Shown: positions 7,524-59,289 of the stretch, piece by piece
Layout: every line of letters starts with the position of its first letter
Position numbering within the stretch: position 1 is the stretch's first letter
Origin: Massilia violaceinigra
GTDB taxonomy: Bacteria > Pseudomonadota > Gammaproteobacteria > Burkholderiales > Burkholderiaceae_D
Assembly (NCBI RefSeq): GCF_002752675.1
Contig: NZ_CP024608.1
Location: forward strand, 6,820,001-6,884,000
Direction of reading: 5' to 3'
Length of the DNA: 64,000 nt
Translations under genes and position numbers: made by a program
The notes under the pieces: generated by a model
What the model was told of the DNA's origin: nothing
Databases searched by the model: none
The model's input: the letters and a program-made list of their open reading frames with translations, nothing else

Positions 7524-7627
7524 GTCTTTGTTTTCCATGCTATTTTTGGGGTAGTGTACGCCAAAGGACATGGCATAAAATCCAACAAACTAGAGTGAAC
7601 CGTCTAGACGTTTCTGATACAAAGCGA

Positions 7628-8326: not shown

Positions 8327-8341
8327 GCGTGCAAGGGCGAG

Positions 8342-8770: not shown

Positions 8771-8778
8771 GGGGGCAG

Positions 8779-9543: not shown

Positions 9544-9712
9544 TTAAAATAGCGCTATCGCGCAGTAGCGGATCATTAAAAACAGGGCTGACAAGCCCGC
9601 GATTTTAACCAGTTCGCCGCCGCACCGCTCTTTAATTCATTCTTGTTCACTACCGTTCGCTGCGCCCAAGGGGGCGCCGTGGGCGTTAGCGTTCTTTTAA
9701 CGGAAGCTCTAC

Positions 9713-10501: not shown

Positions 10502-10522
10502 AATACTGTAGTACGCTGTACT

Positions 10523-10542
10523 GGAGGCCTTGTCCGGCCTCC
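10523..10542 (+). terminator. Possible hairpin terminator after suhB
   Basis: A perfect 7-bp stem GGAGGCC/GGCCTCC with a 6-nt loop lies 22 bp past the suhB stop. The following tail (GCTTTCCC) is only weakly T-rich, so intrinsic termination is possible rather than sure. Confidence 0.4.
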
Positions 10543-10747
10543 GCTTTCCCTCCGCCAGGCTTAACAAGCCGCACGTGAAATTTCCACAGCGAAACTGATT
10601 TCTGTTAAATTTAGCATCGCTGTGTATGCTGCAATGTCGGGTGGCTCCGTTTCCAGTGCCTTTGCCACCACGATTTTCTAATATTGATTGCCTGCGACTG
10701 GCGCTTTCTGCAATGAGCGACGGGCCGATCTCCACCATAAAGTTATC

Positions 10748-14162: not shown

Positions 14163-15071
14163 ATGGAAATTACCGGCTCCACCGTCACACTCCAGCCTGG
14201 CATGTATATCCTGCGCCATCCGACCGGGAACAAGGCCGCGCTGAGCATCGCGCGCGCGCCCGGCGACGGCGCCACGCAGGGGAAGATGGAAATACTCAGC
14301 ACAGCGGGCACCCACGGCAGCGTGCTGCGCGACGGCGCCGACTGCATCGTGCTGCACATCAGCGAAGCGCCGGTCACCTTACTGGTCAGCGCCTTTCTGG
14401 AAAACAAAAACGCCCCCGTTCCGGCTCTGCGTGTCGACCAGATCGCGCTCGAGCGTGGGCCGGTGCCGCCATCCATGCGCGCAGCCGCCGGCGCAGCCCT
14501 GTCCACCCCAGCGCACGCGCACGCCGCGCCGATCGCCATCAGCCCCCAGGGCATGACCCTCATCGGTCACATCGAGCGCAACGGCGACGTCATGGCCGCC
14601 CCCGGCGCCGTGCTCGGCGACCCGGACAGCCTGCTGCGACTGGAAGGCTTCCAGGTCATGTGGCCCGACCGTCCGCACGGCGTCGACCTCGCGTACAGCA
14701 TCGCGGTTGAAGGCGGCGGCGTGCTGCCAATGGTCAAGAGCGGCAAATTCTGCGGCACCCGCAACGAGGCCAGACGCATCATCGAAGTGAGCTTCGCCCT
14801 GATCGGACCGGCCGCCAGCCAGTGGCGCCTGGAAGGAACGGCGTACTTCAGCGGTGGCTACCAGGCGCCGGTGCACTCGGCCGTGCCGCTCAGCGGCCCC
14901 TCGGGGCTCGAACACCTGACCGCGATCACCCTGCACGCGCACCCCGGCCAGGCCGCCGCCAGCGAACCGAACCCATGGCTGGAATCGGCCACCACCAAAG
15001 TATTCAAGGCAACAGCCGCGCAAGCCGAGCAGGTCCAATCGGCTGACAGAGCTGAAGAGCTTGCTTCATGA
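14163..15071 (+). CDS. Protein of unknown function at the head of the glycan cluster
   Basis: About 302 aa from the ATG at 14163; a GTG at 14145 is an alternative and no clear ribosome site decides between them. I do not recognise a family. It has no signal peptide or membrane segment and looks like a beta-rich two-domain protein. The N-terminal part (about 1-95, MEITGSTVTLQPGMYI) is separated by an Ala/Pro linker from a C-terminal part (about 125-290, SPQGMTLIGHIERNGD...). The second half ends in regular strands (WRLEGTAYFSGGYQAP, LTAITLHA) that would fit a beta-sandwich or carbohydrate-binding fold. It lies 63 bp ahead of the DUF4214 gene in the same direction and is the first gene of the block. 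Confidence 0.6.
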   Translation: MEITGSTVTLQPGMYILRHPTGNKAALSIARAPGDGATQGKMEILSTAGTHGSVLRDGADCIVLHISEAPVTLLVSAFLENKNAPVPALRVDQIALERGPVPPSMRAAAGAALSTPAHAHAAPIAISPQGMTLIGHIERNGDVMAAPGAVLGDPDSLLRLEGFQVMWPDRPHGVDLAYSIAVEGGGVLPMVKSGKFCGTRNEARRIIEVSFALIGPAASQWRLEGTAYFSGGYQAPVHSAVPLSGPSGLEHLTAITLHAHPGQAAASEPNPWLESATTKVFKATAAQAEQVQSADRAEELAS

Positions 15072-15134
15072 ACCACGTCTCGTAGCCACTTACGATCGCG
15101 GCGGCACGTCTTAACGACCAGAGGAGAATATTCG

Positions 15135-16178
15135 ATGTATCAACTATCAAACAGTGCGACTACCACGACCCTGATGAATCTGAATTCGACGCTATTTACG
15201 CAGGGAACGATCGACCGCATCCTGGCATTGACGGCCTCGGCCGACAAATTGGTGTCCTTCGATACGGTGACGCCCAATTCGGGCGGCAAGCTTCCCGTTA
15301 GCGCGACCAGCGAAGTGCTGCTGGTGGCCACTTCCGACACCGCCCAGACCACCATTGTCGGCGGCGACAGCGCGCCGGTCACGATTTTCCAGGGCAAGGG
15401 CGGGGTCAATGTGCGCTTCGAAGATGCGCGTCCGACCGACCTGCCCAACACGGTTCCCGAACGCATCGTGGTCGGCACCAACGGCACCGACAAGTTCGTC
15501 ATCGCCGATGACCGCAACACCCAGCTGACCCTGGGCAGCGGCAACAGCGTCGCGTCGAGCATCGGCACCAGCTACGATACCATCGTCGCCGGTCTGGGCA
15601 ACAGCACCATCGTCGGCGGCAATTCCGGCAATGCGATCGTGCAACTGAAGGGCAATGCGTCCGACTACAAGGTCACGGTCCAGGATGGCCATGCCATCGT
15701 CACCAACCTCGCCACGCTCAAGACCACCGACGTCAGCAAGCTCCAGTTCGTCCAGCTCGACGGCGGCCAGGCGCTGGTATTCGCCAGCGACGCCAAGGAA
15801 GCCAGCGTGAGTACCCTGTACTCGGCCGCGCTGGGCCGCTCGCCCGACGCCAAGGGCCTCGAATTCTGGATGGATGCGGTGCGCTCCGGCGTTTCCCTGG
15901 AAAGCATCGCGCAAAGCTTCCTCGATTCGAGCGAGTACAAGGCCAAGCCGCAGCTCAGCGATCAGCAATTCCTCGACGGCCTGTACCTGCGCACCTTCAA
16001 CCGCGCGCCCGATGCCGAGGGCCTGGCCTACTGGAACAACGTGCTCGACAGCGGCGTCTCGCGCGCCTCGGTGCTGGCCGGCTTCATTTCCGTGGCCGGT
16101 AACAGCCTCGATGGCACCGGCAACTATATCGAGCCGGTCGTGGTCGGTTCGGTGACCATCGTTCATAATATTGTTTGA
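15135..16178 (+). CDS. DUF4214-domain protein, probable secreted surface protein
   Basis: A 347-aa protein with a strong GAGGAGAAT ribosome site. The first 220 residues are Thr/Ser/Gly/Asp-rich and beta-like, with hemolysin-type-like stretches (VVGTNGTDKFVIAD, TIVAGLGNSTIVGGNSGNAI). The C-terminal part carries two DUF4214 units (about 225-325) with the repeated pattern LYSAALGRSPDAKGLEFW and LYLRTFNRAPDAEGLAYW. DUF4214 occurs in S-layer and RTX-like exoproteins and in glycosyltransferase-linked proteins. There is no Sec signal, so a type I-like export route is possible. Its stop overlaps the start of a giant glycosyltransferase operon, which makes it a good candidate acceptor; that is inference. 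Confidence 0.82.
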   Translation: MYQLSNSATTTTLMNLNSTLFTQGTIDRILALTASADKLVSFDTVTPNSGGKLPVSATSEVLLVATSDTAQTTIVGGDSAPVTIFQGKGGVNVRFEDARPTDLPNTVPERIVVGTNGTDKFVIADDRNTQLTLGSGNSVASSIGTSYDTIVAGLGNSTIVGGNSGNAIVQLKGNASDYKVTVQDGHAIVTNLATLKTTDVSKLQFVQLDGGQALVFASDAKEASVSTLYSAALGRSPDAKGLEFWMDAVRSGVSLESIAQSFLDSSEYKAKPQLSDQQFLDGLYLRTFNRAPDAEGLAYWNNVLDSGVSRASVLAGFISVAGNSLDGTGNYIEPVVVGSVTIVHNIV

Positions 16179-18184
16179 ACGCGAACGCTGCCGTCCAGGG
16201 CACGCCAGCCGCGGCAGTCTGGAGCGCGTCGCGCCTGCGCGAGGATTTCCTGCTCGCGCAGGCGGTCGACGCCCTCCAGGAAGGCTGGCCGGCCGACGCC
16301 CTGCTGGCCGCCGAAGCGGCGTGCCGCCGCCATGCGGAGGCGGCCATTCCGGCGCTGCTGCGCGCCACCATCCTGCAAGCGTCCCGCTCCGCCTTCAGTA
16401 GTGCGGCGTGGTGCCACGCCTGGCGCCGCGATCCGCAAGATGCACGGCTCCAGGATTTGCTGATCAACGATTGGCTCGCCCACGGCGAGCGCGCCCGCAT
16501 CGCCGCACTGGCGCCGGCGCTGTTGCCGGCCCGCTGCCGCGCCGCCAGCGACGCCGACTTGCTGCCCAGCTTGCGCGAAGCCGCCTGCCTGCCCGCCGGG
16601 GCTTGCTGGCGCGCCGGCGCCGCCATCGAAGGCATGCTGTTCGAGGCCCACGCGGGCGCGTCGGTCCAGCTGTGCCTGCGCGACGAACTCACCCAGGAAA
16701 ACCATGACGTGCGCCTGCCGCCCGGCGCGGCCGGGGCGCGCTTTTCCTTGGTGCCGCCGCATCCGGACGGGGTCTGGTCGCTGGCCCTGGCCGGCGCCAC
16801 CGCCGCCCTGCCCGGCTCGCCCCTGGTCTTTGCCGTCCCGCGCGCCTTGTCCGCCGCGCAGTCCAGCACCGCGCCCGCGCCCACGCCCGCGCCGCTGAGC
16901 GTACTCATCCCGGTCCACAGCGGCTTGGCGCAAGTGCAGGCCTGCATCGCCAGCGTCCTGGCCAGCCTGCCCGCCAACCACGGGCTCGCCGGCGTACTGG
17001 TGATCGATGACGCCAGTCCCGAGCCGGCGCTGGCGGCCTGGCTTGACGCCGAACACGCCGCCGGCCGGATCGGCCTGCTGCGCAACCGCTACAACCTGGG
17101 CTTCGTCGAAAGCGTCAACCGCGGCCTGCGCCAGTTGCCGGGCCACGACGTGCTCCTGCTCAATGCCGACACCCTGGTCCACGGCGACTGGCTGGACCGC
17201 CTGCGCGCCGCCCTCTACCGGGCCGACGATATCGCAGCCGTGGCCCCATGGTCGAACAATGGCGAAATCAGCAGTTTTCCCAGCATCGCCAGGGCCGCCC
17301 CGGCACCGGACGCGGCCGGCCTGGCCCGCCTCGACGGGCAGGCCAGCGCCCTGCACCGCGCTGGCGCCTGCGCCGACGTCGACGTGCCGGCCTGCTGCGG
17401 CTTCGCCATGCTGATGCGCGCCAGCGCGCTCGCCGCGATCGGCGGGCTCGACGGCAACGCCATCGAGCGCGGCTATGGCGAGGAAGTCGACTGGTGCCTG
17501 CGCGCGGCCGCCGCCGGCTACCGCCACCGGATCGCCACCGGCGTGTATGTGGCCCATGCCGGCGGGGTCTCGTTCGGCGACGAAAAACACCTGCGGGTAC
17601 GCCAGAACCGCGCCGTGCTGATGGCGCGCTATCCGCACTACTACAGCGCCTACCAGCGCTTCCTGCAAGACGATCCGCTGGCCGCCGCGCGCGCCTGCCT
17701 GGCCGCAGCGCTGCCGCCCGCGGCGCCCGCCGGCGATGCGCCGCCCGCGCCGCTGCCGGCGCCGCTGGCGTCCTCGTGCACCCGCATCGCGGTCCTCGCC
17801 CATTGCGCCGCGGGAGCGCTGGCGGCCGCCGTGCTGGCGCTGGCGCGCCTGGTCGCCGCGCGCACCGACCTGGCCCTGCGCCTGCTGGTGATCGGCGAGG
17901 TCAGCGAAACGCTGTGGCGCACCGGCGTGGTCGACGTGGTCCCGCCCGCCAGCGGGGCAAGCTTGCTCAGCGACAGCGACCTGATCGGCCTGAGCGGCTG
18001 CATCGTGCTGCTCGCGGCCGACCCGGCGCAGGCCCGCGTCGCCATCGACACGGTGCGCCTGGACCCCGGCTTCGATGCCGGCAGCTGGTTTTCGGCCTTG
18101 CTGGCCAGGGCCCACGTGGCCCCGCGCCCGGCCCTGGCGCCTCTTCATTTTGCCAACCCGGGCAGCACGGGGGCGCGATCATAG
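16175..18184 (+). CDS. Family 2 glycosyltransferase with extra N- and C-terminal domains
   Basis: A 669-aa protein starting at the TTG at 16175, overlapping the DUF4214 stop (TTGA). Residues 1-230 are an Ala/Arg-rich helical part followed by a small beta region. The GT2 (GT-A) catalytic domain spans about 243-490: LSVLIPVHSG, VIDDASPEP, the nucleotide/metal motif LLNADTL and GYGEEVDWCLRAAAAG. The C-terminal 150 residues look like a degenerate Rossmann or second transferase-like domain. It is cytoplasmic, and the sugar and acceptor are unknown. It starts the tightly packed set of glycan genes. Confidence 0.87.
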   Translation: MNANAAVQGTPAAAVWSASRLREDFLLAQAVDALQEGWPADALLAAEAACRRHAEAAIPALLRATILQASRSAFSSAAWCHAWRRDPQDARLQDLLINDWLAHGERARIAALAPALLPARCRAASDADLLPSLREAACLPAGACWRAGAAIEGMLFEAHAGASVQLCLRDELTQENHDVRLPPGAAGARFSLVPPHPDGVWSLALAGATAALPGSPLVFAVPRALSAAQSSTAPAPTPAPLSVLIPVHSGLAQVQACIASVLASLPANHGLAGVLVIDDASPEPALAAWLDAEHAAGRIGLLRNRYNLGFVESVNRGLRQLPGHDVLLLNADTLVHGDWLDRLRAALYRADDIAAVAPWSNNGEISSFPSIARAAPAPDAAGLARLDGQASALHRAGACADVDVPACCGFAMLMRASALAAIGGLDGNAIERGYGEEVDWCLRAAAAGYRHRIATGVYVAHAGGVSFGDEKHLRVRQNRAVLMARYPHYYSAYQRFLQDDPLAAARACLAAALPPAAPAGDAPPAPLPAPLASSCTRIAVLAHCAAGALAAAVLALARLVAARTDLALRLLVIGEVSETLWRTGVVDVVPPASGASLLSDSDLIGLSGCIVLLAADPAQARVAIDTVRLDPGFDAGSWFSALLARAHVAPRPALAPLHFANPGSTGARS

Positions 18185-18834
18185 CGCAGCCGGGCGAGGC
18201 CGGCGTAGCGCGCCGCCTGTCCGACGACTGCGCCGCCGCGCGCCCGCGCCAGCTGCTGCACGTCGGCTGCGGCGCGCGCGGCAACCGCGACTTGCCGGCT
18301 TGCCTGCGCGGCCCCGCATGGCGCGAAATACGGCTCGATATCGACCCCGCCGTCGAACCGGACATCGTGGCCAGCATCAGCGACCTGCACATGGTGGCCG
18401 ACGCCAGCATCGATGCCATTTTCTCCTCGCACAACCTGGAGCACCTCGATGCCTTCGCGGTGCCGCGCGCCCTGGCCGAATTCCACCGCGTGCTGCGCGC
18501 CGACGGCTACGCCCTGATCACCCTGCCCGACCTGCGCGCCATCGCCCTGCACATTGCCGCCGACCAGCTCGACGCGCCGCTGTACCAGTCGCCCGCCGGT
18601 CCGATCAGGCCGTTGGACATGCTGTTCGGCCACCAAGCCGCGCTGGCCGCCGGCCACCGGCACATGGCGCACCGCAGCGGCTTTACCGCCACGACCCTGG
18701 GGCGCAGCCTGCTGGCGGCGGGCTTTCACGAAGTGCGCGTGCACGAAGGCGGGCACTGGGACCTGTGGGCCGTGGCCAGCATGCCCGCCACCGGCGCCGC
18801 CGTGTGGGACGAGCTGGCGCGGGTGATGCAATGA
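18178..18834 (+). CDS. SAM-dependent methyltransferase (start uncertain)
   Basis: About 215 aa of clear class I methyltransferase: motif I LLHVGCGARGNRDLP, the acidic strand end RLDIDPAVEPDIV, AIFSSHNLEHLD and FHRVLRADGYALITLPD. The frame is open well upstream, inside the previous gene. No ATG, GTG or TTG lies between that gene's stop (18184) and motif I. Candidate starts are ATC 18178 or ATA 18181, four to seven bases after a GGGGG tract, or CTG 18217. The 3' end overlaps the next gene by four bases. The coding call is strong; the exact 5' end is not. Confidence 0.8.
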   Translation: MIAQPGEAGVARRLSDDCAAARPRQLLHVGCGARGNRDLPACLRGPAWREIRLDIDPAVEPDIVASISDLHMVADASIDAIFSSHNLEHLDAFAVPRALAEFHRVLRADGYALITLPDLRAIALHIAADQLDAPLYQSPAGPIRPLDMLFGHQAALAAGHRHMAHRSGFTATTLGRSLLAAGFHEVRVHEGGHWDLWAVASMPATGAAVWDELARVMQ

Positions 18835-20033
18835 AGATCCTGTTCATCCATCAGAATTTCCCGGCCCAGTTCCTGCACCTGGCGGGCGACCTGGCGCAGC
18901 GCGGGCATCAGGTCGTTGCGCTGTGCCGCAACGCGCGTGCGGCGCCGCACGGGGTCGCGCTGCGCCCTTACCAGTTGCTGCGCCCGGCGATGCCCGAGAT
19001 CCATCCGCTGCTGGCCGAACAGGAAAGCCAGGTGCGCCACGCCGAAGCCTGCGCCGCCGCCGCCATGCAGCTGCAGCGCGAAGGCTTCGCGCCCGACATC
19101 GTGCTGGCCCATCCGGGCTGGGGCGAAGCGCTGTTCATCAAGGATGTGTTCCCGCACGCCAAACTGCTGCTCTATTGTGAATACTATTACGCGCTCGAAG
19201 GCCAGGATGTCGGCTTCGATCCCGGGCTGCCTCCGCTCAGCATGCCCGAACGCTGGCGCTTGCGCCTGCGCAACAGCACCAATCTGCTGAGCATGGAACT
19301 GGCCGACGCCGCCATCGCGCCCACCCGCTGGCAGCGCGACACCTATCCGGCCTGGGCGCGCGACAAGATCAGCGTCATCCATGACGGCATCGACAGCGAG
19401 CGGCTGCGCTTCAACCCGCAGGCAAGCCTGGCCTTGCCGGGCCTGGCCGCGCCGTTCGCGCCGGGCGATGAAGTGATCAGCTTTGTGGCGCGCAACCTGG
19501 AACCGATGCGCGGCTTCGATGTGTTCATGCGCGCGCTGCCGGACGTGCTGCGCCGCCGCCCGCACGCGCACGCGATCGTGGTCGGCGGGGACGAGGTCGG
19601 CTACGGCTATCCCGCTCCGGGCGGGCGCAGCTGGAAAGAGCACATGCTGGCCGAGGTCGGCGCGCGGCTGGACCTGTCGCGCGTGCATTTCGCCGGCCAG
19701 CTGACGCCGCGCGCATACCTCGACCTGCTCAGCATCAGCCGCGTGCACGCCTACTGGAGCGCGCCCTTCGTGCTGTCCTGGTCGTTCCTGGAGGCGGCCC
19801 TGAGCGGCGTGCCGGTGCTGGCCTCGGCCACCGCGCCGGTGCTCGAATTCGCCGCCGCCCTGGGCGTGCGCTGCGTGCCGTTTTTCGATGCCGCCGCCTG
19901 GGCCGATGCCATCGTCCTGCGCTGCGCGGGCGGCGCGCAGCCGCGCCAGGCGCCGCCGCCCTTGCCGGAACTGGTGCTGGAGAACTGCCTGGCGCGCCAG
20001 CGCCAGTGGCTGGCCACGGCGCTGGCAACATGA
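18831..20033 (+). CDS. Family 4 glycosyltransferase (GT-B fold)
   Basis: A 400-aa protein. The N-terminus MKILFIHQNFPAQFLHLAG is typical of GT4 enzymes with a GT4 N-terminal domain of the FPAQF type. The C-terminal Rossmann domain includes SVIHDGIDSERL, FVARNLEPMRGFDVF, VHFAGQLTPRAYLDLLS and the donor-binding region SWSFLEAALSGVPVLAS. These enzymes transfer sugars from NDP donors, often in capsule or exopolysaccharide synthesis. It overlaps the methyltransferase upstream (ATGA) and ends 33 bp before the next giant gene. Confidence 0.9.
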   Translation: MKILFIHQNFPAQFLHLAGDLAQRGHQVVALCRNARAAPHGVALRPYQLLRPAMPEIHPLLAEQESQVRHAEACAAAAMQLQREGFAPDIVLAHPGWGEALFIKDVFPHAKLLLYCEYYYALEGQDVGFDPGLPPLSMPERWRLRLRNSTNLLSMELADAAIAPTRWQRDTYPAWARDKISVIHDGIDSERLRFNPQASLALPGLAAPFAPGDEVISFVARNLEPMRGFDVFMRALPDVLRRRPHAHAIVVGGDEVGYGYPAPGGRSWKEHMLAEVGARLDLSRVHFAGQLTPRAYLDLLSISRVHAYWSAPFVLSWSFLEAALSGVPVLASATAPVLEFAAALGVRCVPFFDAAAWADAIVLRCAGGAQPRQAPPPLPELVLENCLARQRQWLATALAT

Positions 20034-20066
20034 AACCCCGTTTTTCTTACCGCACCTGGAGAACGC

Positions 20067-23000
20067 ATGGACCTGCATGACAATGCCCCTGAGGGCCACG
20101 CCGACGCCACGCTCGACGCTGCGCACGAGGCACAGGACGGGGCACCCCGGCGCCTGATTCGCGGGCGCATCGAGCGCGTCGACGCCGCCGGCGTGAGCGG
20201 CTGGTGCGTGGACCTCAATTGCCCGCAAGAGCAGCTGGCGCTCGAGTTTCGCGCCGGTGGCAGGCCGGTCGGGTTTACCACCTGCGGCGCGTGGCGCGAC
20301 GACTTGGGCGCCGAGGGTATCGACCCGGGGCGCATCGGCTTTCACTGGCCGCTGCCGCGCCACCTGCCGCAACTGGCGCTCGACACGCTCGAAGCCTGGG
20401 TCTTTGAAACCCCGGTGCGGCTCGAGCGCGCGCCGGCGCACGGGGCACACCTGGCGCGCGCCGCGCGCCAGGCGGGCGCCATCGTCATCGAACGGGTCGA
20501 GTCGTGCGGCATCGCAGGGATGCTGCGCGGGGCCGATCCGGCGCGCGCGCTGACGCTCGAACTGCATGCCGACGGGGTGCTGGCGGCCACCTGCTCGGCC
20601 GGCGCGCCCACCCATGCCTTCGTGCTGGCGCTACCGGATATCCTGTTCGACGGCCAGCCGCACCGGCTGCTGGTGCGCGCGCCCGAACTCGATGCCGAAC
20701 TGGCCCTGACGCCGGCGCAAAGCCTGTTCCAGGCCTACCAGGGCGGCAGCTGGCACATCCGCAACGGCATCCTGTACGGCTGGATCGATCCGCAGCGCTT
20801 GCCCGGCGGCGCGGCCGAACTGCGGGTCGACGACGGCGCCCGCAGCCTGGGCAAGATGCCGGTCGACGCCGCGACACTGGTCAACGGCGCCTTCAGCTTC
20901 AAGTTCGAGATGCCGTTCAGCGTCTACGATGGCGCCCGCCACGCGATCGCCATCAACCTGCAAGGCACGCGCTACCGCCTGTGCGCCCAGGGCGGCGCGC
21001 TCTCGCTGGCCTGGTGCAACAGCGTGATCGGCCGGGTCGACCTGATCGACGCCAACGGCATCTGCGGCTGGGCGCTCGATACCGCCGACAGCGGCGCGGT
21101 CCTGACGGTCGGCCTGTACCAGGACGAGCAATTGCTGGCCCAGGCCACGACCCGGATGGTGCGCAGCGATGTCAACGAGCTGTTCAGGAGCGAAGGCCGG
21201 CATGGCTTCGAGCTGCTGTTCCCGGCGGCCCTGTATGACCGCCAGGCGCGCCGGATCGCGGTGCGCGTGAACGGCGTGCCGCTTAATTTTCGCATCGAAC
21301 ACGACGTGCCGCTGCTGCTCAGCGAGCAGCAACTGGCCCAGATCGCGCCCGCCGAGCGCTACCAGGGCTATGTCGAGCAGCTCACCACCGGCGCCATCAT
21401 GGGCTGGGCCTGGGACCGCAAGAACCCCGCGCTGCCGGTGCACGTGGCGATCCATGTGGACGACCAGTTGCTGGACGTGGTACAGGCCAACCGCTTCAAC
21501 GCCCGCCTGCGCGGCGAGAACCGCCACGGCCATCATGTGTTCCTGCTCAAGTTCCCCACGCGCCTGATGAATGGCAGCAAGCGCCGCATCCGCGCCGTGA
21601 TCGTCGAAGGCAATCTCGAGATCAAGCAAAACGACGATACCTTGCTGTTCCCCCTGGTCGACCATGGCGCACGCCAGATCCGGCCCCTGCCGGACGGCCA
21701 CTATACCCACAGCGTGCCGCCCCGGCTGTGGCAAGGAGGGCGCCCGCGCGCCCCGGCCGTCGCCGCCGAATCGGCCACGCCGCTGATTTCCATCATCGTG
21801 CTGAACTGGAACGGCGCCACCATCCTGCGCGACTACCTCGACTCGATGCTGCGCATCGACTGGTTGCATTCCTACGAACTGCTGCTGGTCGACCATGGCT
21901 CGAGCGACGCCAGCCTGGAGGTGGCGGCCGAATACGCCGCGCGCCTGCCCTTGCGGGTGCTGGCGCGCGGCGTGAATTTTTCATTTTCGGCATCGAACAA
22001 CCATGCCGCGGCGCAGGCGCGCGGACGCTACCTGGTGTTCGCCAACAACGACCTGGTCATGCTGCACGACTGCTTCGCGCCCATGCGCGCCCACCTCGAC
22101 GACGAGCGGGTCGGCGCGGTCGGCCTGAAACTGCTCGAACCGCTCCCCAACGGCGCCGACGCGTGGCGCTTCATCACCCATCACCAGGGCGTGCAGTTCA
22201 AGACCGACAACCTGCCCGGCAAGGGCGGGCGCTACTACGCACCGATGGAAGTGGGCGAGCAGCCGCACGCCGACCTGGCCGGCTGCTACGACCTGCCGGT
22301 GGCCACCGGCGCACTGCTGATGTGCCGCAACGAGGATTTCCGCGCCGTCGGCGGTTTCCACGAAGGCTATGTGTACGGCATGGAAGACGTGGATCTGTGC
22401 CTGGCGCTGCGCCTCAAGCTCGGCAAGACGATCTTGTGCGATACCGCCGCGGTGGCGCTGCACAACCGCAGCGCCACGCGCGACGCCAAGATCCTGGCCG
22501 GCAGCGAGCAGAAAGTGTACTCGGCCAAGGTGCACGCCAACAACCGCAGGCTGTATATCGAGCGCTACGGGCGCGACCTGACGCGCACCATCCTGCGCGC
22601 GCTGGTCGAGGGCGACAGCATGTGGCGGCCGGCGCCGCTGCGCGTGACCATCGCCGTCACCGCCACCGACATCGGCACCGCGGCCGGCGACTTTTTCACC
22701 GCGCTCGAATTCGGCGAAGCCCTGCAGCGCCTGTACGGCTGGGAGGTGATGTTCGTCAACAACCAGGTGCACCAGCTGCCCGGCACCGACGTGGTCGTCG
22801 CCATGCGCCACGATTACGCCATCGACAAGATCAGCGAAGCCAATCCCGGCCTGGTGACGGTGGCCTGGGTGCGCAACCGGGTCGACCAATGGCTGGACGC
22901 GCCGCAATTGCAGGCTTACCAGCTGATCTTCGCCTCCTCGCACAAGGCGATCGAGCACATCAAGGCCGCCACCGGCATCGATGCCACCCTGCTGCCGATC

Positions 23001-27369: not shown

Positions 27370-29390
27370 TCGTCGGCACGGCCAAGACCGGCACCACGGC
27401 GCTGCTGTACGCGGTGGCCCAGGCGATGGGCGGCCAGCCCGTGGTGCACATGGAAGACCGCATCGGCGACCTGCAGGTCTTGCCCGAACACACGGCCGTC
27501 AAACTGATCTTCGAGCACGAAAGCGGCGCCGCCATCGCCGCCTTCGGCGCCGGCTTCGACAAGCGCATCCTGCTGGTGCGCGATCCGCGCGATAACCTGG
27601 TCAGCCGGCTGCTGTACATGGTGGCCGACAATCCGGCCATGCTGGGCGACCCCGCCTGCCTGCGCGTGTTCCACAAGCTCTTGCAGCGCAAGCAGCAGAT
27701 GCCGGGCTCGGTATCGCTGCAGCAATTTCCCCCCATGGGCAAGCCCTCGGATTTCCTGGCCTCGTCCTGCGCCCACATCCAGGCCCTGGCCGCGTTCGCC
27801 GCCGACGCCGGCCCCGGCTGGCATATCCTGCGCTACGAAGACCTGGTGGCGGGCCGCCTCGACGCCCTCGCGGCCTACCTGGGGCTGGCCGTGCAGGCCG
27901 GCGCCAAGGTCGACCCGCAGTACCAGCGGGTGGCGCGCACCAAGGGCGCGGGCGACTGGCGCCACTGGTTCAGCGGCGCCGACGTGGTGCTGCTCAGGCC
28001 GCTGCTGGCGCCCATGATGGCGGCGCTCGGCTACGCCGACGACTGGCAGCTCGCACCCGAGCAGCACATCACGCCCGAGCACAGCTGGCTCTATTTCGAG
28101 CGCCTGGTGCGCGAACGGCGCCAGCACGTCGGCCTGGCGCCGCTGGCCCTGCCCGCGCCGGAGCCATACCAGAGCGGCGCCGTGGTGCGCCTGTCCAAGG
28201 CCGACATCATCAACCGCCTGATCCGCCAGTTCGGCTTCAAGACCTTTTTGGAGTACAACAAGTTCGACGGCAGCAGCTTTTACGGCGACATCGTGTGCGA
28301 CAGCAAGTGCATCGCGTACCAGCCGGAAAACCTGCACCTCGATGCGGCGCGCGCGCGCCACCTGCTGCGGGTCACGGCCGCGGTCGACCTGGGCCAGCTG
28401 CTGCCACTGCCAGCGCTGCTGGAGCGCCATGCCGGCCAGCGCTTCGACATCATCTTCCTCGATCCGACCCACGAACGGCCCGACGTCGACCTGGCGCTGC
28501 GCGCGCTGCCGGCGCTGCTCAATCCCGGCGGCGTGCTGGTGGTGCACGACTGCAATCCGGAACGCGAGGAACTGACCGTGGTCAAGCGCCGCCCCGGCGC
28601 CTGGGTCGGCGAAACCTACAAGGCCTTCGCCCTGCTGCGCCAGTACAACCGCGCCAGCACGGTCACCGTGTCCGAGGATTACGGCGTCGGCCTGGTGTGG
28701 AACAAGGACCTGCTGCTCGATTATCCGATCGGGGCCGATATTACCTACGCCCAGTTCGCGGCGCGGCGCCAAGCCTACAACGGCTTGATCAGTTACCAGC
28801 AATTCCTGGAACGAAGCGAGCGCGGCGATATCGCCACCCTGTTCGCCCAGCCGCCGGCGCCGGCGCCGCTGCGCTTCCAGCCCAGGCCGGCGCCGCCGGC
28901 CGGCCTGGAATGCCAGTTGTTCTGGCGCAAGCCGGGTGCCGATTTCGCGGAGGCCGACGCGCTCACCCTGCCCCTGCCCGCCGACGGCAGCGTGCAGGCG
29001 CTGCACTTCACTTTGCCGCCCGGCGCCGGGCCCATCGAGCGCCTGCGCTTCGACATGGCCGACGCCGTCGTGGCGGTGCGGATCGAAGCCATCGAGCTGC
29101 GCAATCCGGCCGATGCGCTGATGTGGACCTGGGACGCGGCCGCGCACGCGGGCCAGGACTGGCGCAACGTGCGCTTCCACGACGCCGGCGCCGAAGGCCT
29201 GTTCCAGCTCGCCACCAGTGCCGATCCGCAGTTTTATCCGGCCCTGCCGGCGACCATCCTGGGCCAGCTCGGGCCCGGCTGGCAAGTGCTGGTGGTGATG
29301 GCCGCGCAGCCGCCCCTGGTCAGTTCGCTGCTGGCGGCGCTGGCCGGCGCGCCGCCGCGCCAGCGCGATTCAAGCCAGGCCTGCGCATGA
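27357..29390 (+). CDS. Sulfotransferase-methyltransferase fusion
   Basis: 677 aa. The N-terminal domain (1-250) looks like a PAPS-dependent sulfotransferase: the 5'-phosphosulfate loop GTAKTGTT (7-14) and a 3'-phosphate-binding region LLVRDPRDNLVSRLLY (about 72-87). A SAM methyltransferase of the Methyltransf_24 type follows (about 280-480: GFKTFLEYNKFDG, FDIIFLDPTHERPDVD, GVLVVHDCNPE). The last 170 residues form a beta-rich accessory domain (LFWRKPGADF, LHFTLPPGAGPIERL). I know of no standard family with this full order. It suggests sulfated and methylated residues on the product. It overlaps both neighbours. Confidence 0.8.
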   Translation: MRCLIVGTAKTGTTALLYAVAQAMGGQPVVHMEDRIGDLQVLPEHTAVKLIFEHESGAAIAAFGAGFDKRILLVRDPRDNLVSRLLYMVADNPAMLGDPACLRVFHKLLQRKQQMPGSVSLQQFPPMGKPSDFLASSCAHIQALAAFAADAGPGWHILRYEDLVAGRLDALAAYLGLAVQAGAKVDPQYQRVARTKGAGDWRHWFSGADVVLLRPLLAPMMAALGYADDWQLAPEQHITPEHSWLYFERLVRERRQHVGLAPLALPAPEPYQSGAVVRLSKADIINRLIRQFGFKTFLEYNKFDGSSFYGDIVCDSKCIAYQPENLHLDAARARHLLRVTAAVDLGQLLPLPALLERHAGQRFDIIFLDPTHERPDVDLALRALPALLNPGGVLVVHDCNPEREELTVVKRRPGAWVGETYKAFALLRQYNRASTVTVSEDYGVGLVWNKDLLLDYPIGADITYAQFAARRQAYNGLISYQQFLERSERGDIATLFAQPPAPAPLRFQPRPAPPAGLECQLFWRKPGADFAEADALTLPLPADGSVQALHFTLPPGAGPIERLRFDMADAVVAVRIEAIELRNPADALMWTWDAAAHAGQDWRNVRFHDAGAEGLFQLATSADPQFYPALPATILGQLGPGWQVLVVMAAQPPLVSSLLAALAGAPPRQRDSSQACA

Positions 29391-30091
29391 AAGCCATCCT
29401 CGTGATCGGCCACAGCCACATGAATGCCCTGCGCGCCGTGCCGGACGCGCTGCAGACCTGCGACTTCATGCCCTTTACCGAAGCCGGGGGCGCCTACCAG
29501 ACGCGCGCTCCGGCCGAGTTCGCGGCCCTGGCGGCGGGTCCGGCCGACACGGTCGTGTTCATGATGGGTGGCAAGACCCATATCACCCTGGGCATGCTCA
29601 ATCCGCCCGAGCCCTTCGATTTCTATCTTCCCGAACATACCGATCTGCCGATCAACCCGGCGGCGCGCCTGCTGCCGGTGGACCTGGTACGCCTGCTCCT
29701 GACGCGCCACCTCAAGCACGACCTCGACTATATGGGCCAGCTGAGCGCCGTGTTCAAGGGCCGCCGCCAGCTGCACATCGAGCCGCCGCCGCCGCTGCCA
29801 AGCGCGTATATCGCGCAGCATCCGTCCGGATTCGCCGAGCGGGTGCGCGAACGCGGCGTGGCCCCGGCCGCCTTTCGCCACAAGTTCTGGCTCCTGCATT
29901 CGGCCATCCTGCGCGACCATTGCGCCGCGCTGGGGATCGACTTCGTCGCGCGCCCGGCGGGCGCCCAGGACGCCGATGGCTGCCTGGCCGCGCCTTACCT
30001 GCGCCAAGACCCCACCCATGCGAACGCGGCCTATGGCGCCCTGCTGCTCGATCAAATCCTCAGCCTGCGCCAAGGCGCGCCCTGTCCATGA
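29387..30091 (+). CDS. SGNH-like esterase/acyltransferase-fold protein
   Basis: A 234-aa protein. ILVIGHSHMNAL at residues 5-15 is an SGNH block I variant (G-H-S-H), with Ser10 the likely nucleophile. DPTHANAAYG near the C-terminus supplies the Asp-x-x-His of block V. VFMMGGKTHI may be block III. There is no signal peptide, so it acts in the cytoplasm on a glycan intermediate or a carrier. It sits immediately before a GSCFA protein that has the same catalytic fold, in an overlapping arrangement (ATGA at both ends). Acylation or deacylation of sugars is the likely role. Confidence 0.75.
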   Translation: MKAILVIGHSHMNALRAVPDALQTCDFMPFTEAGGAYQTRAPAEFAALAAGPADTVVFMMGGKTHITLGMLNPPEPFDFYLPEHTDLPINPAARLLPVDLVRLLLTRHLKHDLDYMGQLSAVFKGRRQLHIEPPPPLPSAYIAQHPSGFAERVRERGVAPAAFRHKFWLLHSAILRDHCAALGIDFVARPAGAQDADGCLAAPYLRQDPTHANAAYGALLLDQILSLRQGAPCP

Positions 30092-31785
30092 AAAACACGC
30101 CCTACCAAGCCCTGCCCGAACACTGCTTCTGGCAACGCGCCGTGGCCGGCGTGGCGCGCGAGCAGGTCGATGCGCTGGTGACGGCGCCGTTCATGATCGC
30201 GCCGGGCGAGCGCATCGTCACCGCCGGCAGCTGTTTCGCGCAACACGTCGGACGCCACCTGCGCGCCGCCGGCCTGTCGGTCCTGCAAACCGAACCGGCC
30301 CACGACTGGCTGCACGACAGCGAGGCGGCCAGCTATGGCTACGGCATCTACAGCGCGCGCTACGGCAATATCTATACCGCGCGTCAATTGTTGCAACTAT
30401 TCCAGCGCGCCCACGGACAGTTCCAGCCCGCCGAGCGGCTGTGGGAGCACGGCGCGCGCTGCATCGATCCGTTCCGCCCGCGCATCCAGCCCGACGGTTT
30501 CGCCACGCGCGAGGAATTCGAGGCGGACCAGCGCCAGCACTTTGGCGCCGTGCGCAGCGCCTTCGCGCAGCTGGACGTGCTCATTTTCACCCTCGGCCTG
30601 ACCCAGGCGTGGGAAGCGCTCGACGACGGCGCCGTGTTCCCGCTCTGCCCCGGCGTGGCCGGCGGCAGCTTCGATGCGCTGCGCCACCGGGTCCACAATT
30701 TCAGCGTGGCCGAGGTGACCGGCGACATGCTGGCCTTGATCGACCTGCTGCGCGCCGTCAATCCCGCCGCGCGCCTGATCCTGACGGTGTCGCCGGTGCC
30801 GCTGGCGGCCGGCGCCGCCGCGCACGAGCACGTGTTAACTGCCAACACCTGGTCGAAATCGGTCTTGCGGGTCGCGTGCGCCGACATCGTGGCCAGGCGC
30901 GAGCGGGTCGCCTACATGCCGTCGTACGAACTGATCACCGGTGCGCATGCGCGCGGCGCCTATGTCGCGGACGATCTGCGCAGCGTGACTGAAGCCGGCG
31001 TGAGCCATGTCATGCGGGTGTTTTTGCGCCATTTCATCGGGAGCGCCGGCACCGTCGTGGCGCCGGGCGTGGCGGCCGCGGGCGGCGGCCTGGAACAGAT
31101 GGCGCAGCTGGTGGCGGTCAATTGCGACGACGATGCGCTCAAGCTGGCGCCCGCGGCGCCCTTGCTCGCGCCGCTATGCAACCTGTGCGGCGGCGAGGCG
31201 TTCGGGCCGGGGCCGGGCGGGCGTCTCGGCAAGGACCAGCTTGGCCCGCACTGCCTGGCCTGCGGTTCGCTGGAGCGGCAGCGGGTCGCCGCGCAGGTAC
31301 TGCTGGAACTGGGCCGCGAGCAGCTGGCCGGACGCCGCGCCCTGCTGGTGGGGGCGGAACGGGGCGCCGACGTGCGCTGGTTCCGCCACTGCGATGCGGT
31401 GCAGGCGAGCGCGCCCGGGGTGCTGCCGGCGGCCCTGGCCGACTATGCCGACGCCAGCTACGACCTGATCGTGCTGGTGCATGTGCTGGAATACCTCGAC
31501 GACGACCGCGCCGGCTTCGACCAGCTGCGGCGCCTGCTCTCGCCCACCGGCCTGCTGCTGGCGTGCTTCGTCGATCCGCGCGTGCGCCCGTGGACCAGCC
31601 TGCATGTGGGCCCAGCCGGCAGCGCGCGCCGCTGGTACGGGCGCGATCTGGCCCAGCACTTTCGCTGCAAGCCGGAAAAACTCGGCGTGACCATGCACGA
31701 AGTCGCCGACCCCGGCACCGGCGCGGTGCTGCCGGTACACCTGTTTGCCGCCGCAACGTCCCCGAAAGCGCCACCCCCATGCTGA
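30088..31785 (+). CDS. GSCFA-domain protein fused to zinc ribbon and methyltransferase-like domain
   Basis: 565 aa. The N-terminal GSCFA domain (about 30-315) has its name motif at 47-51 (ITAGSCFAQHVG-like context) and FTLGLTQAWE and SPVPL further on. GSCFA proteins are SGNH-related and predicted to act on glycan O-acyl groups. From 364 on comes a ribbon (C364, C367, C389, C392: CNLCG...CLACGSLERQR) and a methyltransferase-like domain (YDLIVLVHVLEYLDDD, RRWYGRDLAQHFR) lacking a canonical SAM loop. It matches the second half of the product of 24518-25987. It overlaps the next gene by seven bases. Confidence 0.84.
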   Translation: MKNTPYQALPEHCFWQRAVAGVAREQVDALVTAPFMIAPGERIVTAGSCFAQHVGRHLRAAGLSVLQTEPAHDWLHDSEAASYGYGIYSARYGNIYTARQLLQLFQRAHGQFQPAERLWEHGARCIDPFRPRIQPDGFATREEFEADQRQHFGAVRSAFAQLDVLIFTLGLTQAWEALDDGAVFPLCPGVAGGSFDALRHRVHNFSVAEVTGDMLALIDLLRAVNPAARLILTVSPVPLAAGAAAHEHVLTANTWSKSVLRVACADIVARRERVAYMPSYELITGAHARGAYVADDLRSVTEAGVSHVMRVFLRHFIGSAGTVVAPGVAAAGGGLEQMAQLVAVNCDDDALKLAPAAPLLAPLCNLCGGEAFGPGPGGRLGKDQLGPHCLACGSLERQRVAAQVLLELGREQLAGRRALLVGAERGADVRWFRHCDAVQASAPGVLPAALADYADASYDLIVLVHVLEYLDDDRAGFDQLRRLLSPTGLLLACFVDPRVRPWTSLHVGPAGSARRWYGRDLAQHFRCKPEKLGVTMHEVADPGTGAVLPVHLFAAATSPKAPPPC

Positions 31786-32522
31786 CACCGGAAGAACTGG
31801 CCACCACCAAAGACTACATCCTGCGGCGGACCAAGAGCCTGGACCAGGCCCTGCTGCCGCTGGGCGACCCGGCCGGCAAGGACGTGCTGGTATTCGGCTG
31901 CGGCTTGGGCAACGAAATCCTGTGGTGCGCGCGGCGCCAGGCGCGCTCGGCGCTCGGCATCGATCTCGGCACTCCCCGGCAGGAAGCGCTGAACGCCGTC
32001 ATGGCCGACGAGGGGTACGCCGGGTTCCCATACGCCATCCATGAGTGCAATGTGCATGACCTGGCGCTCGACCATCCGGGCCGCTACGACCTGATCGTTT
32101 CGAACGGCGTGTTCGAACATGTATCGGACCTCAAGGGCGTGCTCAACGCCATGCGCGCCCTGCTGCGCCCGGGCGGGCGGATCGCCATCTATGCCGACGG
32201 ACTGTGGTTCTCGGCGATCGGCGGGCATCTGGGCAAATACAACTGGGAGCATTTGTGGATGACGCCCCAGGCCATCAAGGAACAGTTCCCCGAGCGCTGG
32301 CACGCCTACATGAATAACCTGAACCGCATGACGGCGGCCGATTTCCTGCAGGCGCTGCGCGATGTCGGCGCCCTGGTGCTGCAATTTCATGTGCGCAGCG
32401 ATCCGTATTTGCCCAAGCTGGCGCCGCTGATGGCGCAGATCCAGGCGCGCCAGCAAGTCTCGCCGACCGATCTGTCGATCACCTCGATCGGCTGCGAGCT
32501 GTGCTTCCTGGAGCATCTGTGA
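31779..32522 (+). CDS. SAM-dependent methyltransferase
   Basis: A 247-aa class I methyltransferase. Motif I is VLVFGCGLGNEILW, followed by LGIDLGTP, YDLIVSNGVFEHVSD and LLRPGGRIAIYADGLWF. The C-terminal half (YNWEHLWMTPQAI...) is typical of sugar or natural-product methyltransferases. It is the last of the strictly overlapping set; a 70-bp gap separates it from rmlB. It likely methylates a sugar, but the acceptor is unknown. Confidence 0.88.
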   Translation: MLTPEELATTKDYILRRTKSLDQALLPLGDPAGKDVLVFGCGLGNEILWCARRQARSALGIDLGTPRQEALNAVMADEGYAGFPYAIHECNVHDLALDHPGRYDLIVSNGVFEHVSDLKGVLNAMRALLRPGGRIAIYADGLWFSAIGGHLGKYNWEHLWMTPQAIKEQFPERWHAYMNNLNRMTAADFLQALRDVGALVLQFHVRSDPYLPKLAPLMAQIQARQQVSPTDLSITSIGCELCFLEHL

Positions 32523-32592
32523 CAAGCGGCTTGCCTGACGGGCGGCTTACCCATCACATCGTGATGCCATGTCCACGCGCGACGGACACGCC

Positions 32593-33648
32593 ATGATTCT
32601 AGTGACCGGTGGTGCCGGATTTATCGGATCGAATTTCATTCTCGACTGGCTGGCGCACAGCGACGAGGGCATCGTCAATCTCGACCAGCTCACGTATGCG
32701 GGCAATCTGAACAACCTGGCCGCGCTCAGGGGCGATGCGCGCCACCTGTTCGTGCGCGGCGATATGGGCGAGCAGTCCCTGGTGGCGGCCTTGCTGGCCC
32801 GGCACCGCCCGCGCGCGCTGGTCCATTTTGCCGCCGAAAGCCATGTCGACCGCTCGATCGCGGCGCCGGGCCAGTTCATCGCCACCAATATCGGCGGCAC
32901 CTTCGCGCTGCTGGAAGCGGCGCGCGCCTGGTGGCAGTGCCTGCCGGAGCCGGAGCGCGCCGATTTCCGCTTCCTGCATGTGTCCACCGATGAAGTGTAT
33001 GGCTCGCTCGGCGCGGACCAACCGGCATTCACCGAGCGTTCGGCGTATGCGCCGAACAGCCCGTATGCCGCCTCCAAGGCCGCGTCCGACCATCTGGTGC
33101 GGGCCAGCTTTCACACCTATGGCTTGCCGACCCTGACCAGCAATTGCTCGAATAATTACGGCCCCTACCAATTCCCCGAAAAGCTCATCCCGCTGATGAT
33201 CGCCACGGCCCTGGCCGGGCACGCGCTGCCGGTGTACGGCGACGGCATGCAGGTGCGCGACTGGCTGTACGTGGGCGACCATTGCGCGGCGCTGCGGTGC
33301 ATACTGGCGGCAGGCCATCCTGGAGAGGTGTATAACGTGGGAGGAGAAAACGACATGACCAATATCGACGTGGTGCGCACCCTGTGCGACTTGCTCGACG
33401 CGGCGGCGCCGGCACGCGCCAGTTATCGCCGGCAGATCACCCATGTGGCCGACCGCGCCGGCCACGACCGCCGCTACGCGGTCGACGCCGGCAAGCTGCG
33501 GCGCGAACTGGGCTGGACGCCGGCCGAGCATTTCGCCAGCGGCATCGCGCGCACCGTGCACTGGTATCTGGCGCAGCGCGCCTGGGCCGACGAGATCGCC
33601 TCGGGCGCCTACCGCGACGCCCGCTGGCCCAGCGGCGGTGCCGCATGA
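32593..33648 (+). CDS. rmlB: dTDP-glucose 4,6-dehydratase RmlB
   Basis: A 351-aa extended SDR enzyme that converts dTDP-glucose to dTDP-4-keto-6-deoxyglucose. TGGAGFIG is the NAD-binding loop, HVSTDEVYG is the catalytic Asp-Glu region, and [12 protein letters not shown] gives the YxxxK pair; [15 protein letters not shown] is highly characteristic. The ATG at 32593 matches the family start; an in-frame ATG at 32569 would add eight residues. It overlaps rmlA by four bases. Confidence 0.95.
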
Positions 33649-34538
33649 TGGCCGCGCTGGCGCGCAAGGGAATCATCCTGGCGGGCGGCTCCGGCTCGCG
33701 CCTGTATCCGGTCACCACCAGCACCTCCAAGCAGCTGCTGCCGGTGTACGACAAGCCGATGATCTATTATCCGCTCACCACCCTGATGCTGGCGGGGATC
33801 CGCGATATCCTGTTGATCTCGACCCCGCAGGACACGCCGCGTTTTCACGACCTGCTGGGCGATGGCAGTAAATGGGGCATCAATCTGCGCTACGCGGTGC
33901 AGCCGTCGCCGGACGGCCTGGCGCAAGCCTTCCTCATCGGGCGCGCGTTTGTCGGGCAACACCCGTCGGCGCTGATCCTGGGCGACAATATCTACTATGG
34001 CCACGAACTCGATGCCAAACTGGGCAAGGCGCATGCCCACGGCGACGGCGCCACCGTGTTCGCGTATCACGTGCTCGACCCGGAACGCTATGGCGTGGTC
34101 GAATTCGGCCCGGACCAGAACGCGCTGTCGATCGAGGAAAAGCCAGCGCGGCCGAAATCGCATTACGCCGTCACCGGCCTGTATTTTTACGACAACCAGG
34201 TGTGCGACATTGCCGCCGCGATCACGCCATCGGCGCGCGGCGAGCTGGAAATCACCGATGTCAACCGCGCCTACCTGGCGGCGGGCCAGTTGCGCGTGGA
34301 AGTGATGGGGCGCGGCATGGCATGGCTCGACACGGGTACCCATGAATCCTTGCTGGAAGCCTCGCAATTCATCGCCACCATCGAAAAACGCCAGGGCCTG
34401 AAGGTCGCCGTGCCGGAAGAAGTGGCCTATCGCAAGGGATATATCGATGCCGATGCGCTCGCGGCGCTGGCCCGGCCGATCAAGGACAATGCCTACGGCC
34501 GCTATTTGTTGCACGTCTTGCATGAGCAGGTATTCTGA
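33645..34538 (+). CDS. rmlA: Glucose-1-phosphate thymidylyltransferase RmlA
   Basis: A 297-aa nucleotidyltransferase making dTDP-glucose from dTTP and glucose-1-phosphate. The signature [14 protein letters not shown] binds the nucleotide, with [27 protein letters not shown] and [20 protein letters not shown] all diagnostic. It feeds RmlB in the same operon. rmlC and rmlD are not in the window, so the 4-keto-6-deoxy sugar may go to rhamnose elsewhere or to another deoxysugar. Confidence 0.95.
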
Positions 34539-59260: not shown

Positions 59261-59289
59261 CGCGAAATCTTTAATCGCGAAATTTTTAA
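59260..59289. repeat. 15-bp tandem duplication at the deacetylase start
   Basis: TCGCGAAATCTTTAA and TCGCGAAATTTTTAA lie head to tail (one mismatch). On the minus strand the first copy ends in the deacetylase ATG. Confidence 0.75.

Follow-up and report, generated by a model that had tools for sequence, protein, structure and literature searches.

The window analysed here is a 64,000-nucleotide stretch of DNA, of which positions 14163..34538 hold a block of 14 genes, all on the plus strand and covering ~20 kb from the ATG of the gene for protein U (14163) to the end of rmlA (34538). With the start codons chosen in this analysis, the genes overlap at 10 of the 13 joints, confirming the earlier note's description of a mostly overlapping, same-strand block at these coordinates. 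The note's view of the 20 kb as a single conserved set did not hold. The conserved core is the first five genes (14163-20033), and the remainder is a variable decoration tail.

The core begins with protein U (14163..15071; 302 aa), which falls in no Pfam or NCBIfam family, and a DUF4214 protein (15135..16178; 347 aa; Pfam, 90.6 bits). These are followed by a family-2 glycosyltransferase identified by Pfam (GT2; 16175..18184), whose 669 aa include a long N-terminal region peculiar to it, and by a SAM methyltransferase gene (~18172-18834) that the earlier note had overlooked and whose start codon is ambiguous in this lineage. The fifth gene (18828..20033) encodes a protein with PF12000 (Glyco_trans_4_3) and group-1 glycosyltransferase domains in Pfam; its PF12000 domain scores 199.6 bits against a curated cut-off of 25.

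The tail starts with a giant transferase of 1484 aa (20067..24521), in which Pfam finds a GT2 domain and two Glyco_trans_1_2 stretches and in which N-terminal beta repeats are visible by eye. The best PDB sequence match of its GT2 domain is GalT1 (5hea; E 1e-5), a weak and generic match. Pfam also identifies a protein with two methyltransferase domains (24518..25987), a GSCFA domain fused to a methyltransferase (30088..31785), a further SAM methyltransferase (31776..32522), an rmlB-like nucleotide-sugar dehydratase (32569..33648), and the rmlA glucose-1-phosphate thymidylyltransferase (33648..34538), which also exceeds its NCBIfam cut-off. Thus, most of the gene content claimed earlier, including the DUF4214, GT2, and 1484-aa proteins, lies above Pfam cut-offs, but three of the calls are weak. 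The protein at 25984..27369 is possibly polysaccharide deacetylase-like ("NodB-type"), with PF10096 below the cut-off (E 0.062). The one at 27357..29390 is a possible sulfotransferase-methyltransferase-like fusion, both halves of which are below the cut-off (PF00685, E 0.019; methyltransferase, 25.4 bits versus 26.3). The 234-aa protein at 29387..30091, previously labeled SGNH, has no significant family.

Pfam was run on 60 open reading frames of the window, from a mechanical list of 213 with at least 100 aa. Among these 60, no gene was found for an initiating phosphoglycosyl transferase, flippase, polymerase, or polysaccharide exporter, so that the absence of Wzx, Wzy, and their companions reported in the earlier note is upheld for the block and for the scanned flanking genes alike. 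The lack of these hallmark genes in the cluster also supports the statement that it is unlike an ordinary O-antigen or capsule locus. In our search of the whole genome, the nearest of four PF02397 sites lies ~443 kb from the block, and the nearest PF01943 match, which is below the cut-off, is ~433 kb away.

Across 116 Oxalobacteraceae genomes, U, DUF4214 matched over the whole core profile, and GT2 matched beyond its catalytic domain occur in the same six genomes (Fisher 3e-10, kinship ignored). U itself was matched in nine genomes, six of which were kept as full length; G042 and G066 gave weak partial matches. G044, which is 68% complete, has only the first 33 residues of U, genuine-looking and at a contig end, with no match to the core DUF4214 or GT2; when it is counted in, the set is present in six of seven U genomes. 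One of the six, G060, has neither PF12000 nor the core methyltransferase within 45 kb. Of the 16 named loci that carry U, 15 have DUF4214 and GT2, and 13 have the core methyltransferase and PF12000 transferase. Massilia, Pseudoduganella, and Rugamonas are among the taxa whose named loci repeat the core order, which indicates that the block is not a chance arrangement. The tail (20067-34538) differs between genera, and the 1484-aa transferase is present at full length in 5 of the 16 loci, whereas in others the methyltransferase is preceded by a GT2 protein of ~820 aa (cluster c4). The DUF4214 and U genes therefore travel with the transferases, as anticipated; together with the dissimilarity to O-antigen and capsule loci noted above, this means that neither refuting result named in the earlier note (polysaccharide-export genes just outside the block or most relatives lacking DUF4214) was found.

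At the level of the order, U was matched in 2 of 399 genomes, namely, this genome and G386, where the match is weak and in two pieces. A wider profile (A3) matched 9 of 398 genomes in the phylum, from which G580 and G602 were dropped as weak and containing stop codons. Six U genomes were kept outside the family; since four of them (G539, G777, G755, and G779) had already been met through PF12000, the independent ones are just G821 and G837, the latter being almost the same as G777.

The DUF4214 protein consists of an N-terminal cap, an RTX-like beta-roll (approximately residues 106 to 215), the DUF4214 helical bundle, and a conserved C-terminal end. Its profile matches and its modeled fold lean to RTX domains, but Pfam lists no RTX repeat (PF00353) in it. 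In a Foldseek search with the model, no match reached E 0.001; the best was 9cse (E 2.2e-3, probability 1.0), with TM-scores of only 0.20 to 0.24. Serine and threonine make up 20.5% of the protein, versus 5.4 to 12.9% in ten other proteins of the window, and an N-x-S/T sequon occupies one alignment column in 14 of 16 homologues. These features are compatible with N- or O-glycosylation alike and decide nothing. The C-terminal end is conserved across the 16 aligned homologues, which may hint at an uncleaved C-terminal secretion signal. DUF4214 was also considered as the defining element of the system and was rejected, because matches are common (24 in this genome; the core profile is found in 45 of 116 family genomes) and because no relatives of the core transferases lie around five other DUF4214 genes of the same genome (L047 to L051). 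The AlphaFold model of U has two beta domains. No signal peptide was seen by eye, and many homologues have a basic C-terminal tail, again by eye.

A clue to function comes from PF12000 transferases elsewhere. An HlyD and/or RTX gene was observed within ~10 kb of the PF12000 transferase in 14 of 28 genomes, versus 1 of 24 sites for a different GT4 family, PF13439, and none of 16 arbitrary places; the remaining 14 PF12000 loci have neither in range. These 28 loci represent one per genome, with this genome excluded, from the 29 of 299 genomes matched at an E value of ≤1e-20. Of the 28 genomes, 24 have a PF13439 site, and the top one of each served as a control (in G663 the top site, lying ~3 kb from the PF12000 site, was passed over), as did the arbitrary places, which came from 16 of the genomes; in the PF12000 and control sets alike, some stretches fall short of 20 kb. 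The search for HlyD used a single tblastn query (E ≤ 1e-12), and that for RTX used a simple pattern. Type I secretion system (T1SS) or RTX genes were found in 11 of the 16 family labels of the survey. U is present in 4 of the 28 loci and in 0 of 40 controls (Fisher 0.025), and the core model finds no DUF4214 gene in these loci.

In four genomes from two genera, the genes form a six-gene operon encoding a T1SS ABC protein, HlyD, a Sel1-repeat protein, GT2, U, and PF12000. G821 was picked up by U alone and then matched this predicted arrangement. No recognizable RTX gene was found in the six-gene operons or in the upstream DNA read for two of them. Elsewhere in the genome studied here, genes for a T1SS ABC protein, HlyD (over the TIGR01843 cut-off), and a second PF12000 transferase stand in a row. 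An Oxalobacteraceae metagenome-assembled genome (L042) has a row comprising an exoprotein with N-terminal DUF4214, T1SS ABC, HlyD, TolC, and U, named from PDB sequence matches and from models built in this analysis; it gave no GT2 or PF12000 match, and its contig ends soon after U. It is the only one of the 16 named U loci with an HlyD match, the other 15 having none within the available DNA. Near the window's own copy there is no T1SS gene, and the four HlyD genes over the cut-off are megabases away. The T1SS family tested is present in five of six U genomes, yet also in 16 of 110 others. The match of an L115 RTX protein to the core DUF4214 profile (E 9e-17) was not used, as its bias term is as large as its score.

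The occurrence of U, GT2, and PF12000 relatives beside T1SS genes in distantly related bacteria points to an undescribed route to secreted glycoproteins. The earlier note had proposed a protein acceptor in the cytoplasm, and this is the best reading because those relatives share operons with T1SS genes elsewhere; L042 favors it as well, and direct glycosylation is the part that we infer. We therefore regard the block, with a probability of roughly 60%, as a protein-glycosylation locus linked to T1SS, in which an exported RTX-like protein would be glycosylated in the cytoplasm independently of a lipid carrier. The RTX-like DUF4214 polypeptide, likely the exported acceptor of the glycan, would be made in the cytoplasm, where the soluble GT2, PF12000, and multidomain 1484-aa transferases may add sugars singly from nucleotide sugars, both the covalent linkage and the order of the sugars being presumed. 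RmlB and RmlA would supply dTDP-deoxy sugars, and the methyltransferases, probably together with the sulfotransferase and deacetylase, would complete the glycan. The glycoprotein could then exit via a T1SS (ABC, HlyD, and a TolC-type channel) encoded elsewhere in the genome. U is best read as a dedicated partner, serving either the transferases or the acceptor.

A different arrangement is also conceivable, in which the transferases would synthesize or modify a polysaccharide of the cell surface (a lipopolysaccharide O-chain or an exopolysaccharide) that is exported by machinery encoded elsewhere in the genome and to which the T1SS-exported DUF4214 protein binds. The S-layer protein RsaA of Caulobacter offers a precedent, being secreted by a T1SS and attached to O-antigen through its N-terminal domain, according to PMC8828063; PMC11970703 reports that a Halomonas DUF4214 protein partly aligned to the Caulobacter S-layer protein. 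The four PF02397 sites and the PF01943 gene elsewhere in the genome could serve such a polysaccharide, and in L042 the N-terminal-DUF4214 exoprotein adjoins T1SS genes in a layout that resembles rsaA-rsaDEF. Since the L042 genes favor this arrangement and cytoplasmic glycosylation alike, they leave the odds as before. The locus, however, has no lipid-carrier gene, and both L097 and the second operon of this genome pair a single PF12000 transferase with T1SS genes, no further transferase being noticed with Pfam run on some of the neighbors. Polysaccharide binding also leaves U unexplained, and no RsaA entry appears among the 50 Foldseek matches listed, although this excludes nothing. We consider this arrangement rather unlikely.

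Of the 18 gene sets compared, 4 have the locus next to an flhB cluster, and in L036 Pfam confirms flhB, flhA, and an SRP54-type GTPase (FlhF-like), which would suit a flagellin-glycosylation island with DUF4214 and U as passengers. However, other sets are placed elsewhere (beside an MFS gene in the window and, by eye, beside phosphate-uptake genes in G001), no flagellin was found among the scanned open reading frames of the window, which does not contain the flhB cluster, and U and GT2 relatives lie in T1SS operons of other bacteria; a flagellin target is thus quite improbable. Still less probable is a chance neighborhood of decoration enzymes with no single product. The variation of the tail by genus would fit it, but the core is coinherited and syntenic, and parts of it are repeated in other taxa.

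Returning to cytoplasmic glycosylation before T1SS export, we see an even chance that it represents a system that is widespread in Pseudomonadota and so far undescribed. T1SS substrates would be modified in the cytoplasm by PF12000 transferases, GT2, and U, which would then pass them on to the ABC/HlyD exporter; the locus of the Massilia type would be a branch that has diversified, with a DUF4214 protein as acceptor and a tail of exchangeable decoration genes. If so, glycosylated polypeptides would be established as T1SS cargo, the uncharacterized PF12000 family would gain a class of substrates, and U would become a marker for locating such systems. The six-gene operons offer a direct way to test the idea. 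Glycosylation of proteins in the cytoplasm before export is known for more than one export route. Two-partner secretion is one example (PMC2877744). In the literature searched (titles and abstract openings, with subscription journals and preprints thinly covered), nothing ties PF12000, DUF4214, or T1SS substrates to cytoplasmic glycosylation, and the T1SS linkage of PF12000 transferases and U is the new element of this analysis.

Among known systems, the serine-rich repeat adhesins of streptococci, such as Fap1, receive a glycan built in the cytoplasm by several soluble transferases and leave by accessory Sec export. The system proposed here would resemble them in using several soluble transferases on a secreted protein, and its link is to T1SS. 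The Haemophilus HMW1C system, in which an exported adhesin is glycosylated in the cytoplasm before export and with no lipid donor (PMC2877744), is similar to the order of events proposed here. HMW1C, however, is a single hexose-adding enzyme tied to two-partner secretion, whereas here there are several unrelated transferases, methylation, and a T1SS link, and no GT41-type Pfam domain is listed in the block. Caulobacter RsaA, a calcium-binding surface protein exported by a T1SS (RsaDEF; PMC8828063), resembles the proposed system in its mode of export, the L042 gene row being comparable, but RsaA binds O-antigen noncovalently. Finally, the surface protein SwmA of Synechococcus is given as a glycoprotein on the basis of staining (PMC2943079), and its gene lies on a genomic island that also holds a glycosyltransferase gene (PMC7522525), in both respects resembling the proposed system.

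The block consists of 14 genes on the plus strand (14163 to 34538 of a window that covers positions 6820001 to 6884000 of contig C1, in a 7.5-Mb genome), as judged by ORF inspection and Pfam. Family searches found the gene list of the earlier note again, although its sulfotransferase and deacetylase labels were weakly supported and its SGNH label was unsupported, and a further methyltransferase gene absent from that list lies in a different frame at ~18172 to 18834. The usual start of this core methyltransferase is an ATG within an ATGA overlap, as in loci L032 and L033; in L031 as well as the window, ATC replaces the ATG, and this lineage may use a rare start codon. Inspected by eye, the 1484-amino-acid (aa) transferase (20067 to 24521) has about four tandem beta repeats without a Pfam family ahead of its family 2 glycosyltransferase (GT2) domain, and the large GT2 proteins of relatives seem to have similar N-terminal repeats. 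A PF01522 polysaccharide deacetylase gene is found on the opposite strand at 58337 to 59299, 24 kb from the block.

The first five genes (14163 to 20033) are treated here as a core: U, a 302-aa protein without a family (14163 to 15071), the 347-aa DUF4214 protein (15135 to 16178), a 669-aa GT2 (16175 to 18184), the methyltransferase, and a PF12000 transferase. U has 261 relatives in the protein database at E ≤ 0.001, itself counted, and among the best 120 of these the closest with species names belong to Massilia, including M. antarctica and M. frigida. Full-length U is encoded in 6 of 116 Oxalobacteraceae genomes (G000, G111, G075, G001, G009, and G060), and fragments are present in three more, of which the piece in G044 resembles a true U start at a contig end. 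Matches to the core DUF4214 profile occur in 45 of the 116 genomes; in all but one of the six with U the match spans the whole profile (420 to 549 bits), and in the remaining one, G060, it is in two pieces (17 to 167 and 131 to 346, the second with 140.6 bits). Beyond these six genomes, none of the matches listed extends to either end of the profile, and the best has 121.8 bits over 127 to 322. GT2 matches 40 of the 116 genomes, starting at residue 1 to 19 in the six genomes with U (the contig of G009 ends within the gene); elsewhere the match is confined to the catalytic part, with starts at 198 or later.

Among 16 named U loci, 15 each have the DUF4214 protein and GT2, and 13 each have the core methyltransferase and the PF12000 transferase; the three loci without the latter two are L037 and L040, both short contigs, and L042. 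Neither of these two genes was found in 45 kb in G060. U comes first in most loci, last in L039, and is convergent in L045. The genes past the core differ between loci: 5 of the 16 (L031 to L034 and L044) encode the 1484-aa transferase at full length, a GT2 protein of mostly ~820 aa (cluster c4) is found in 9 of 18 gene sets, and the tails include a pyruvyl transferase (L021), a phytanoyl-CoA dioxygenase with a weak GT61 (L041), and an RgpF-like protein with a DUF4214-sulfotransferase fusion (L035). The fusion, in Massilia sp. Root351 (L035, 19954 to 20850), scores 23.5 bits against a cutoff of 23.2. G111 shares seven of the window tail genes, with the GSCFA gene present only as its methyltransferase half; the 234-aa tail gene of the window was not found there. 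Flagellar export genes flhB-flhA-flhF adjoin the locus in 4 of 18 gene sets (L036, 1589 to 6425; L035, L038, and L041 by clustering), and this neighborhood is perhaps an insertion hot spot.

The absence of an initiating transferase, wzx, wzy, and an exporter, as claimed from the sequence alone, was borne out: among 60 window ORFs, Pfam detected neither a phosphoglycosyl transferase nor Wzx, Wzy, or a polysaccharide exporter. The transport-type proteins that it did detect were an MFS protein (12726 to 14018), a permease of the MacB/FtsX type, and a transporter of the AI-2E type. The genome has PF02397 sites at 0.63, 5.41, 6.38, and 7.30 Mb, and PF01943 over its cutoff at 0.60 Mb and weakly at 6.37 and 7.29 Mb, versus 6.83 to 6.85 Mb for the block.

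Sixteen DUF4214 homologues can be aligned along their entire length; all begin with MY, and the C-terminal end is conserved. The predicted structure (mean pLDDT, 79.3) combines a cap at the N terminus with a beta-roll and a helical bundle. Foldseek matched it best to RTX domains (9cse, E of 2.2e-3, probability of 1.0, TM of 0.20 to 0.24; 5cxl, TM of 0.63 by target length) and, in the helical bundle, to phycobilisome linker domains (3nph, probability of 0.99, E of 0.14). A profile search of PDB sequences likewise returned RTX-type proteins (E of 9e-4 to 0.4), the top rank going to a phage coat protein (5e-4, single stretches below threshold). Serine and threonine make up 20.5% of the protein, versus 5.4 to 12.9% in ten other window proteins. 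Elsewhere on contig C1, near 1601893 to 1611198 and 5716330, ORFs of 7156 and 7814 aa contain DUF4214 domains, many copies in the first, and probably encode giant secreted proteins.

PF12000, present in 29 of 299 phylum genomes, is associated with type I secretion system (T1SS) genes. Within about 10 kb of PF12000, 9 of the 28 genomes other than the source have HlyD, 12 have an RTX-pattern ORF, 14 have at least one of the two, and 7 have both; the corresponding counts were 0, 1, 1, and 0 at sites of a different GT4 family (PF13439), taken from 24 of these genomes, and all 0 at 16 arbitrary places (Fisher for at least one, 2.2e-4 and 3.5e-4, respectively, kinship ignored). In L097, a PF12000 transferase, an ABC protein (over the TIGR01846 cutoff), HlyD (over the TIGR01843 cutoff), and a 1722-aa RTX protein are encoded in a single direction. 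U-profile relatives occur in 4 of the 28 loci (L101, L114, L115, and L117; E of 1e-33 to 4e-16), and nothing exceeded the threshold in 40 control stretches. L101 groups U and a 655-aa RTX protein (PF00353) with a PF12000 transferase, a core methyltransferase relative, and two large GT2 proteins. None of the 28 loci gave a match to the core DUF4214 domain model, and thus DUF4214 would be the acceptor in one branch only.

The gene order in G539 and G777 is T1SS ABC, HlyD, repeat protein, GT2, U, and PF12000. A wider U profile run against 398 phylum genomes added two sound cases with the same six genes: G837, nearly identical to and of the same genus as G777, and G821, of a different genus with the same family label and 38 to 66% identical to G777. 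In G837, Pfam identifies the ABC, HlyD, Sel1 repeats, GT2, and PF12000, and HlyD exceeds the NCBIfam cutoff. The operon GT2 relatives have ~258 residues, the catalytic part, in common with the window GT2 at the threshold used. The PF12000 transferase lies within ~3 kb of U in all six genomes kept outside Oxalobacteraceae, four of which had been found via PF12000.

Within the family, L042 (Oxalobacteraceae MAG UBA7693, 1006 to 10861) encodes in one direction a 1155-aa DUF4214 protein (N-terminal domain, E of 4e-20 with a custom model against this single sequence), an ABC protein (matched best among PDB sequences by 5l22, which is named HlyB subfamily), relatives of HlyD and TolC (the latter matching 7ng8, E of 4e-30), and U; the contig stops ~0.8 kb past U. 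This is an S-layer-like export locus with U. The other 15 named U loci had no HlyD match within the sequence examined. In the source genome, a second PF12000 transferase (2076732 to 2077991) follows ABC and HlyD genes (L094/L095, 2072884 to 2077991); this HlyD is over the type I cutoff, the best NCBIfam match of the ABC protein is the HlyB subfamily, below cutoff, and no RTX-like substrate was noticed beside the row. The same HlyD family is found in five of the six genomes with U (all except G075) versus 16 of 110 others (Fisher, 7e-4, kinship ignored), indicating an exporter that is at hand but neither linked to the block nor specific.

A polysaccharide can hardly account for a single transferase, or for U together with GT2 and PF12000, within a T1SS operon, whereas glycosylation of the exported protein in the cytoplasm readily does. 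For the window, the DUF4214 protein would be the natural candidate acceptor, GT2, the PF12000 transferase, and the large 1484-aa enzyme would build the glycan, and the tail gene products would decorate it. We found no description of such glycosylation at the title and abstract level, in a search thin on subscription journals and preprints. The main rival is that the DUF4214 protein is instead anchored noncovalently to a glycan, the model for which is RsaA (PMC8828063). Cytoplasmic glycosylation of an exported protein has its precedent in HMW1 (PMC2877744).
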